Source of the DNA: Halorubrum amylolyticum
GTDB taxonomy: Archaea; Halobacteriota; Halobacteria; Halobacteriales; Haloferacaceae
DNA length: 40,177 bases
NCBI RefSeq assembly: GCF_004114995.1
Contig: NZ_SDJP01000013.1
Coordinates: 1 to 40,177, forward strand
Direction of reading: 5' to 3'
Part shown: one piece after another, positions 5,718-21,162 of the stretch
Numbering within the stretch: position 1 is the stretch's first letter
Layout: every line of letters begins with the position of its first letter
Program-made: the position numbers and the translations under genes
Notes under the pieces: model-generated
What the model saw: the letters and a program-made list of their open reading frames with translations, nothing else
Database searches by the model: none
What the model was told of the DNA's origin: nothing

Positions 5718-5802
5718 GCGGGGGTGGCTGAGCCTGGCCAAAAGCGGCGGACTTAAGATCCGCTCCTGTAGAGGTTCGAGGGTTCGAATCCCTTCCCCCG
5801 CA
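5718..5802 (+). tRNA. tRNA-Leu, anticodon UAA
   Basis: The acceptor stem pairs GCGGGGG (5718-5724) with CCCCCGC (5795-5801), and A5802 is the discriminator. The D-arm is TGGCTGAG...; the anticodon stem is GCGGA/TCCGC around the loop CTTAAGA, giving anticodon UAA. A long class II variable arm (CTGTAGAGG) and a T-arm with GGTTCGAATCC follow. The long variable arm and A discriminator identify leucine. No intron is present and CCA is not encoded. Confidence 0.95.
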
Positions 5803-19769: not shown

Positions 19770-20231
19770 TCACCAGAAGCCCCCGTCGGAGTCCCCCGAG
19801 CCGCCCGAGCCCCTCGGTCCGCCCGGACCGCCCGGACCACGCGGGCCTCCCGGACGCGGATCGGGATCGATCTCCACCAGCTCCGACTCCGCGCGCGGGT
19901 CGATCTCGCGACCCTCCTCGTACCGAACGAACGAGAGGTAGAAGGGCTCGCCGCAGCCGATGCCCTGGGCGTCCGGCTCCCGATAGGGCTCGTCGCCGCC
20001 CACGTCTGACCCGCGGACGCCGTCGTGCGGGTCCCAGTCGACGCCGTCGCTCTCGCCGCAGACGAACCGGACGCCGTCGGCGTCGTCGCCATCGAACGCT
20101 CCCGTCGGGGCCACGTACGACCACCCTTCGAGGGGGTACGGCGTCACCGACTTGTCCGCGAGGTAGCCGTCGCGCTCCAGTTCGACGAGGGTCCCGCAGT
20201 GCGGACAGTAGTAGGTGACCGGGTAGCCCAT
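19770..20231 (-). CDS. Zinc-ribbon protein with collagen-like Gly/Pro tail
   Basis: The 153-residue protein opens MGYPVTYYCPHCGTLVELERDGY, giving a CxxC knuckle at C9 and C12. Other cysteines at about 58 (FVCGE) and 93 (IGCGE) could complete a zinc site. The centre has aromatic and acidic segments of unknown fold. The last 25 residues are almost only Gly, Pro, Arg and Ser (PGGPRGPGGPGGPRGSGGSG) and end in GGFW. I do not know the function. TTTATAAA lies 20-27 bases upstream of the start. The structured non-coding block lies immediately upstream on the opposite side of this promoter. Confidence 0.78.
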   Translation of the reverse strand: MGYPVTYYCPHCGTLVELERDGYLADKSVTPYPLEGWSYVAPTGAFDGDDADGVRFVCGESDGVDWDPHDGVRGSDVGGDEPYREPDAQGIGCGEPFYLSFVRYEEGREIDPRAESELVEIDPDPRPGGPRGPGGPGGPRGSGGSGDSDGGFW

Positions 20232-20250: not shown

Positions 20251-20258
20251 TTTATAAA
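20251..20258 (-). promoter_or_regulatory. TATA box of the zinc-ribbon gene
   Basis: TTTATAAA lies 20-27 bases upstream of the ATG at 20231, consistent with leaderless initiation. Confidence 0.7.
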
Positions 20259-20303
20259 GGAGCGTCGGCAGGTGTGCCGCTGACCCGGTCACGGTCACTA
20301 TCG

Positions 20304-20575
20304 CATATAACTAGCTGTGCGGTGGCGCGCGCCTCCGAGCGCCCTAATAAGGGCGCGAGGAGCGCCGCGCGAGGGAGTCGGTCGTCCGGAGCAACGCGGA
20401 GGGCGACCGACGAGGCTGGGGAGGCGTGAGGTGTGGTTGCTGTGCGGGGCGGGACTCAAAGGGGCAGCCGCGAGGACGGCGCAGGTGACGCAAGCACTGC
20501 AGGGAGCGAGCATCGCGAGCGACTGAAGCGCACAGCGAACGTGCGCCGTCCTCGCGGCTGGGGCTTTGGAGGGGC
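20304..20575 (+). ncRNA. Hairpin-dense block with its own TATA-like box, possible structured RNA or repeat element
   Basis: No coding frame is convincing here. A CATATAAC box at 20304-20311 predicts transcription from about 20333. Hairpin 1: GCGCCCT (20339-20345) pairs with AGGGCGC (20350-20356) around AATA, then facing GA/GA, then TCC with GGA. Hairpin 2: GTCGGTCG (20377-20384) pairs with CGACCGAC (20404-20411), extended by three pairs. Hairpin 3: a perfect 19-bp pairing of 20465-20483 with 20542-20560, then a facing GGG/GGG internal loop, then CTCAAAG pairing with CTTTG-GAG. It could be a transcribed RNA, or a dispersed palindromic element of the kind I vaguely recall between Halorubrum genes. 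Which of these it is cannot be decided here. Confidence 0.5.
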
Positions 20576-20610
20576 CACCGCGGAGTCGTCGATCACGTAT
20601 AAACCACCGA

Positions 20611-21162
20611 TCAGTGAAACCCGCGGTCCACGTCGTCCTCGTCGATCAGGTCCTCGAGTTCGGCAGAGAGCAGCTCCTCGGCCTCCTCGAAGGTGTCCGA
20701 GAGCTCGTCGAGTTCGTCCGGGCGCCCGTCGAACTCGTAGTCCATCGGGCCGAACGCCGGCGAGTCGATCGCCTCCATCACGTCCTCGAACAGGTGGTCC
20801 GGGCTGGTGGGCGCTTCGGCGTGGACCTTCAGCGTCTCGCGCAGCCGAGTCGCGGCGTCCTCGGCCTCAGACTCGTCCTCCGGCGGCGACTGCACCGCGA
20901 ACCGCCCGGCCGACTCCTCGTCCGGGAGCAGGGGGTCGAGCTCGTCGTCCACGCTGCGGGTGATCCGCGCGCCCACCCCGCGGAGGTCGCGGGGGTTCTT
21001 CGCGTACGTTTTGAGGTGGTAGACGCCGACGCCCGGGTGGCCGAAGTAGAGGTCCTCACCGAGCCCCTCGCGTCTGGAGCCCGCGACCGCGCGCCAGCCG
21101 TCGGGGTCGGTCGAGTCGCTCGCGACGTCGGCGAGGATGTCGTCCCAGTCTCGCACGCGCAT
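20611..21162 (-). CDS. Acidic haloarchaeal protein of unknown function
   Basis: The 183-residue protein begins MRVRDWDDILADVASDS. It contains a compact N-terminal part with EDLYFGHPGVGVYHLKTYAKNP and GVGARITRSVDDELDPLLP (about 35-80). A helical, very acidic C-terminal half ends DLIDEDDVDRGFH. It looks like one of the haloarchaea-only DUF families (DUF57xx series), but I cannot name it with certainty. Gly-His-Pro and Tyr-Lys clusters suggest a conserved pocket. It is divergent from the dna2 gene with about 100 bases between starts. The ATG at 21162 is preferred over upstream in-frame starts, which add basic shadow sequence. Confidence 0.8.
   Translation of the reverse strand: MRVRDWDDILADVASDSTDPDGWRAVAGSRREGLGEDLYFGHPGVGVYHLKTYAKNPRDLRGVGARITRSVDDELDPLLPDEESAGRFAVQSPPEDESEAEDAATRLRETLKVHAEAPTSPDHLFEDVMEAIDSPAFGPMDYEFDGRPDELDELSDTFEEAEELLSAELEDLIDEDDVDRGFH

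Follow-up and report, generated by a model that had tools for sequence, protein, structure and literature searches.

The non-coding block at 20319-20568 (+) of the window, as we call the whole 40,177-nucleotide stretch of Halorubrum amylolyticum DNA analysed here, is one of many copies of a dispersed element with three hairpins whose structure is conserved: compensatory changes at homologous base pairs exceeded those found in shuffled controls. The explanation that we favour, with a confidence slightly better than even, is drawn from sequence comparisons. The element would be a non-autonomous, largely domesticated hairpin repeat of haloarchaea, of the REP/PATE kind, whose folded + strand is recognised as a single strand. 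The core of the element is present in every Halorubrum genome searched (52/52), reaches several other families and is absent from Rfam. Such a family constitutes a natural experiment of a kind rare in archaea: dozens of copies in a genome keep their shape while the sequence is replaced, at sites that can be traced across species. It would allow selection on folded RNA, selection on folded single-stranded DNA and self-repair of hairpins to be told apart, and its description will help annotators and assemblers to recognise a recurring intergenic repeat.

Anatomy of the element and its copies within one genome

The block is located between two genes called on the minus strand. The left neighbour (19770-20231) has its own TATA-like box at 20252-20259, and the right neighbour (20611-21162, 183 aa) had a DNA match in 49 of the 52 genus genomes, its closest orthologues belonging to named Halorubrum records; neither gene matched Pfam at E 1e-3. 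Genes were called with a codon-model caller instead of being taken from annotation, and its calls in the window agreed with the two neighbour genes as read. On the + strand, a TATA-like box, CATATAAC (20304-20311), frequent though not obligatory among the copies of Halorubrum, precedes by 22-29 bases the CTCC strand (20333) of the first hairpin. The family alignment begins at the conserved 5′ motif GCGGTGGCGCG (20319-20329), which was near-invariant in 84 aligned rows, themselves chosen by GCGGTGGCGCG with at most one mismatch. Stem 1 (20326-20370) pairs 20333-20336 with 20359-20362 and 20339-20345 with 20350-20356, on either side of facing GA/GA mismatches (20337-20338/20357-20358). The conserved motif GCGAGGGA (20369-20376) leads into stem 2 (20377-20411), formed by 20377-20387 and 20401-20411 with one G-U pair and variable in length and sequence across the family, followed by the conserved core GAGGCTGGGGAGGCGTGAGG (20412-20431) and a G/T-rich linker of variable length (20432-20450). 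The 3′ domain opens with GGGACTCAAAGGGG (20451-20464), which contains the outer arm CAAAG (20457-20461) and a first GGG (20462-20464). Then come the 19-base 5′ arm of stem 3 (20465-20483), its interior (20484-20541), the 19-base 3′ arm (20542-20560), and a second GGG (20561-20563) with the outer arm CTTTG (20564-20568).

The initial annotation had read this block as non-coding, with perfect 19-bp arms separated by 58 bases, a symmetric GGG/GGG loop, an outer stem and two upstream hairpins, the first with facing GA/GA, and all these features were recovered. Two extensions were added to that reading: the 58-base "loop" is a predicted ladder in which short paired steps alternate with GA/GA mismatches, and the element continues through a tail unit with GTATAAAC (20569-20610), so that it ends at about 20610. 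The claim that the structure goes beyond chance also held, as the + strand folded at -153.9 kcal/mol compared to -124.4 ± 4.5 (z -6.6) for 200 dinucleotide shuffles, none of which was as good. The block had no match in Rfam 15, where chance scores lay far below the gathering level. The sole gathering-level match in the window was a tRNA-Leu (anticodon TAA) at 5718-5802. The conserved 5′ motif region (20319-20333) has what we take to be a resemblance to the start of eukaryotic SRP (7SL/Alu) RNA, which is probably due to chance because Rfam scoring gave no SRP match.

A vague association with dispersed palindromic elements of Halorubrum intergenic DNA, made in the initial annotation, turned out to be right. 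The core pattern TGGGGAGGNGTGAGG, with at most one mismatch, matched the genome 73 times compared to once for a backwards-pattern control; one of the 73 was a chance match inside a gene, without the rest of the element, and about 71 copies remained once a doubled core was merged. This number rules out a single intergenic RNA gene. The window copy was 73-89% identical to other copies of its own genome (40 scored out of 164 candidates). The copies, of about 270-300 bases with three hairpins, shared a common order of parts: GCGGTGGCGCG, stem 1, GCGAGGGA, stem 2, GAGGCTGGGGAGGNGTGAGG, G/T linker, GGGACTCAAAGGGG, stem 3, GGGGCTTTGG and tail. Stem 3 was absent or unrecognised by the script in 18 of the 71 copies, at least three of which (L012, L081 and L086) do have it with a changed foot. 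The 3′ end motif recurred (2-5 matches) in 25 out of 71 copies, often with 54-base spacing.

Some copies carried additional modules. Double-hairpin inserts of about 50-60 bases were observed within stems 1-2 of seven copies (L018, L024, L067, L078, L083, L130 and L131) and within stem 3 of four (L032, L040, L130 and L362). The insert hairpins differed in sequence and shared short similar linkers, and they have the look of another mobile module, of smaller size and with hairpins as its target. Another subset had inverted ends, with GATAGCGGGAGT some 183 bases 5′ of the core (L017, L027, L029, L039, L071 and L138) or its reverse complement about 223-267 bases after it (L024, L029, L036, L039, L065, L080 and L098). 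Head or tail end motifs were present in 11 out of 116 pooled rows, and the window copy is without such ends. Copies with longer flanks and inverted ends are perhaps an older full-length form. Tandem core duplications were also seen elsewhere, with four tandem cores, 29 bases apart, at G201:C1:117144-117246.

Pairing kept while the sequence changes

The initial annotation had asked about compensatory changes among homologous copies, and they are present: far from being only identical recent copies, the copies have diverged from one another and abound in paired changes, which keeps a structured-RNA reading alive. The 78 distinct stem-3 arm pairs were Watson-Crick at 1085 out of 1140 positions. 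For the first 13 bp of stem 3 (58 arm pairs), the Watson-Crick fraction was 0.951 within copies compared to 0.696 when arms were exchanged between copies (maximum 0.745 in 200 exchanges). The pooled set comprised 201 rows, drawn from listed places and not at random: 73 matches from the own genome (including the chance match and one locus counted twice), 43 from other loci in genus genomes and named records (L093 accounting for four rows), 40 from genome G001 and 45 from a further six genomes. Because pairing within pooled copies could reflect relatedness among them, we followed one orthologous site across species.

This site, hereafter site 2, is that of copy L012, whose downstream gene was found in 51 out of 52 genus genomes. 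The core was present upstream of that gene in 24 of the 30 loci opened, and 22 of these 24 also shared the upstream gene; at the same site, L378 has stem 3 and the tail near a contig end and L374 is a remnant. The analyses used 22, 20 (3′ domain) and 18 (stem 1) of the 24 copies, omitting those with an unclean stem 3 or start, inserts, N, a cut at a contig end or a length outside the limits. Across the 22 copies, the first 13 pairs of stem 3 showed 674 compensated two-sided changes between pairs of species, compared to a shuffled mean of 124 (maximum 310 of 200). In the 3′ domain (stem 3 plus outer stem) of the 20 clean copies, 94.8% of cells were paired, falling to 37-51% when the partner was slid by one base, and 14 of the 22 pairs had changed on both sides, compared to 6.5 ± 1.2 in shuffles (0/500 as high). 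Of the five measures, one did not rise above shuffles, namely the count of additional pair types (291/500). Stem 1 behaved similarly in 18 copies, with 96.3% pairing as opposed to 24-27% after a one-base slide, two-sided changes in 9 of 15 pairs (5/500 shuffles as high) and a covariation score that no shuffle reached (0/500). The sliding control favours the structures of stem 1 and of the 3′ domain because these were drawn up from the same alignments. RNAalifold, run unaided on the 3′ domain of site 2, predicted 36 pairs, 23 of them changed on both sides, and these included the interior ladder, in which 2-bp steps alternate with GA/GA mismatches. Stem 2 was omitted from the pair counts because its sequences fall into two classes whose pairing registers in the alignment differ. 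Within stems 1-2, 88 of 110 tandem GA mismatches stood in CGAG/CGAG, TGAG/CGAA or similar contexts, which favour sheared GA pairs.

Several features bear on which strand folds and as which molecule. A + strand that folds would be expected to accept G-U but not A-C, and among distinct helix contexts G-U outnumbered A-C (30 versus 13, P 0.014). The excess came from stems 1-2 (20:4) and was not seen in stem 3 (10:9), which suggests that the + strand is the one that folds in stems 1-2; the relatedness of the copies, which are not independent, calls for caution here. This excess fits RNA and single-stranded DNA alike and does not tell them apart. Apical loops of the three-base GNA type were common: a finder biased towards short loops placed them in 86 out of 158 stem-2 segments, and a stem-3 search restricted to three-base loops gave GAA or GGA in 63 out of 165 matches, its numbers for GCA and ACA taking in some matches away from the apex. 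GNA loops are a feature of very stable DNA mini-hairpins. In addition, the interior of stem 3 was inverted relative to its arms in 4 of 53 own-genome bodies (L069, L071, L079 and L080); L071 is nearly identical to L017 up to stem 3, where the inversion lies. The GNA loops and the inverted interiors point towards DNA.

The TATA-like box points towards RNA. It was located 10-26 bases 5′ of the conserved start in 48 out of 84 rows, with a peak at 10-20 bases, or in 44 out of 80 loci when the repeated L081 and L093 rows were removed. The initial annotation had credited the block with a box of its own ahead of the first hairpin, where a transcript would start, and the box itself is there. The promoter that it implied is less well borne out, since the box was absent or degenerate in 36 of the 84 rows. 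Inspection by eye at site 2 found it clear in 15, weak in one and missing in six of the 22 readable copies, and copies of other genera, also by eye, did not show it as a fixed feature. With the usual archaeal spacing between TATA box and start, a transcript would begin inside stem 1 and would lack the most conserved 11 bases.

These observations define the main rival explanation, which is a serious one: the copies may be related non-coding RNA genes with transcription of the + strand, for which the TATA-like box of the copy would often serve in Halorubrum. The RNA would fold into the three hairpins with their GA/GA ladders and would act in trans or within the 3′ region of the neighbour gene. 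The covariation at an orthologous site, the excess of G-U over A-C in stems 1-2, the conservation of the + strand core and 5′ motifs across families, the peak of the box just before the conserved start and the independence from the strand of the host gene all speak for it. We nonetheless regard it, on sequence evidence, as rather unlikely, in view of the inconstant box, the inverted stem-3 interiors, in which GA/GA becomes TC/TC, the frequent GNA apical loops, as in stable DNA mini-hairpins, and the missing Rfam match.

Placement, inheritance and apparent exchange of hairpins

We classified the copies according to their neighbouring genes. Of 67 rows with both neighbours called, 34 lay between convergent genes, 14 were co-directional in sense, 11 antisense and 8 between divergent genes; L081 was counted twice among the convergent rows, giving 33 out of 66 loci, and five further rows at contig ends were set aside. 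None of the 67 overlapped a called gene. Convergent pairs made up 17 out of 130 gene pairs without the element compared to 34 out of 67 rows with it (Fisher P 3e-8), in a background where some loci overlap and a few pairs are counted twice. A role as a sense-strand 3′UTR element was rejected, since co-directional sense and antisense rows were similar in number (14 versus 11) and the apparent same-strand bias amounted to the preference for convergent genes. The strands of 102 exact core matches in one single-contig genome were random (runs z 0.83), and a replication-strand bias was rejected. A stretch of 378 kb in that genome (G045:C1:1016223-1394519) contained no exact core match (P 0.0015 for such a gap) and is possibly acquired DNA.

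The site of the window copy was compared among 30 loci opened by the right-hand gene. In seven of them a core lay within 1.5 kb in the same orientation, and in one more (L138) it was on the opposite strand. Both flanking genes were found in eight species, four with the element and four without it, and the four carriers matched in their flanks and differed in stems 1-3. No target-site duplication was evident by eye between filled and empty sites, whose boundaries were not sharp. Searches with the window copy or the core as the only queries matched 4 out of 72,556 plasmid records, five stretches of viral contigs and none of 50,697 phage records, collections whose share of haloarchaeal records was left uncounted. 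The element is likely a mobile repeat that is now mostly inherited in place, as far as comparison of genomes can indicate; against an active mobile element, 24 out of 30 species keep the copy at site 2. Recent identical mobile copies were rejected as an explanation, since whole-element duplicates were few and L019/L028 was the sole pair of own loci with at least 90% identity over at least 200 bases (90%, 303 bases).

Two candidate copying enzymes were considered. Y1_Tnp had no match in 8 out of 35 Halorubrum carriers, including G001 and G014, with 128 and 121 core matches, and dependence on Y1 transposases was therefore rejected. Copying by a reverse transcriptase would make the element a retroposed RNA, an archaeal counterpart of SINEs, and its RNA-like folding and repeated 3′ end would agree with such an origin. 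RVT_1 was found in 4 out of 292 class genomes and in none of the 35 Halorubrum genomes, whereas all 35 carry the core, so that this route was rejected and the explanation is nearly refuted.

Exchange between loci seems to involve whole hairpins as units, because seven stem-2 sequences were each exactly common to two own loci while stem 1 differed in the five pairs that could be compared (5/5). Such exchange is also what would be expected of an inert repeat in which pairing is kept by mutation and not by selection, with hairpins templating their own repair by strand switching and copies converting each other. The inverted stem-3 interiors of four copies would fit this explanation, as would the equal G-U and A-C numbers in stem 3 and the tandem duplications of the 3′ end and of the core, the latter seen in L093 (four cores, 23 bases apart) and L081 (two, 16 apart). 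It ranks third among our explanations and we consider it improbable. Repair of arms leaves unexplained the conservation across families of the + strand core and 5′ motifs, which are predicted to be unpaired, and it would erase the tandem GA/GA mismatches that are kept in place. The G-U excess in stems 1-2 and the retention of the site 2 copy also speak against it.

The favoured explanation, a domesticated hairpin repeat, would involve several steps. The + strand of the element would fold while single-stranded, and this fold would be under selection or would serve for recognition, presumably by a protein of the host or of the element that reads the folded strand, be it DNA or RNA. Copies would spread rarely and then be inherited in place, recombination between them would exchange whole hairpins, and copies close to promoters would be removed by selection.

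Kinship with known repeats and range across the class

The REP and BIME sequences of enterobacteria lie between genes, often at 3′ ends or where two genes converge, and occur as many diverged copies that are often vertically inherited. They form hairpins with strand-specific motifs; each REP is one short palindrome with a GTAG foot, and REPs are associated with a RAYT Y1 transposase. The element resembles them in being intergenic and biased to convergent gene ends. It differs from them in its size of about 270-300 bases with three hairpins, as opposed to a short single palindrome with a GTAG/GGAG foot, and in occurring in genomes without a Y1_Tnp match. With MITEs it shares its short, non-coding and dispersed nature and the inverted ends of a subset of copies, but most copies are without terminal inverted repeats, and neither a target duplication nor a parent transposon came to light. 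Likewise, covarying stems, conserved unpaired motifs and tandem GA motifs recall the structured RNAs of Rfam, from which the element is set apart by the lack of an Rfam 15 match, by a very high and variable copy number and by being known from DNA only.

The closest kind appears to be the PATEs, MITEs and SMRs of Haloquadratum walsbyi, as far as the accessible part of PMC3119063 describes them. Like PATEs and SMRs there, the element is a dispersed haloarchaeal hairpin repeat without a transposase, and the small repeats reported in the same part to insert into palindromes of other repeats have a parallel in the double-hairpin inserts within stems described above. PATEs have near-terminal palindromes related to IS605-type transposons, according to that part of the paper, whereas the body of the element consists of three hairpins and its conserved framework is internal. 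Unlike what is described there, stems are replaced between copies, and a link to IS605 was not found in a comparison that left the ends aside.

The literature was searched by topic and by motif letters without finding a description of the element; subscription papers lay outside the scope of this search and an earlier description is possible. The accessible parts of PMC5018182, PMC6749651, PMC10927574 and PMC7565180 do not describe it. None of the three longest of the six motif strings was among the literature matches listed, and PMC7565180, which came up with a short string, was unrelated in its accessible part. RNA or transcript data for the element did not appear in the literature searched, including the accessible part of PMC10927574.

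Regarding its range, each of the 52 Halorubrum genomes contained 8-194 core matches with at most one mismatch, compared to 0-1 for the backwards control. At the same threshold, 57 out of 148 genomes of a family sample had matches, 30 of them from the genus and 27 out of the 118 outside it; lone matches outside the genus may be due to chance because the backwards control gave 1-3 matches in some genomes of this sample. The exact core pattern was present in 84 out of 292 genomes of a class sample, representing 23 of 77 genera: all 35 genus genomes and 49 of the 257 others, 32 of which had at least three matches. The backwards control matched 12 of the 292 genomes, once each.

Copies beyond the genus were compared in five genomes of other family genera and in 11 genomes of three other families. 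In them the core again followed the 5′ part, which had the form GCGCG..GCGAGGGA or a variant of it, while the stems were unrelated in sequence. Under a broader and tentative reading, which we regard as rather unlikely, the copies could belong to an unnamed, haloarchaea-wide family of structured nucleic acids, a working RNA or single-stranded DNA selected for its shape and not for its sequence. Such a family would combine a fixed single-stranded framework with exchangeable GA/GA hairpins and ladders, its copies numbering as many as about 190 in a genome, at sites kept across much of the genus while stems change in matched pairs. The 3′ hairpin domain is not universal, being absent in G053 and G080 and recognisable in about 9 of 21 copies from the three other families. 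Where the outer stem could be followed by eye, it changed in pairs, from CAAAG/CTTTG in Halorubrum to GAAAG/CTTTC in G064 and G066 and to CGGAAG/CTTCCG and CGAAAG/CTTTCG in G057.
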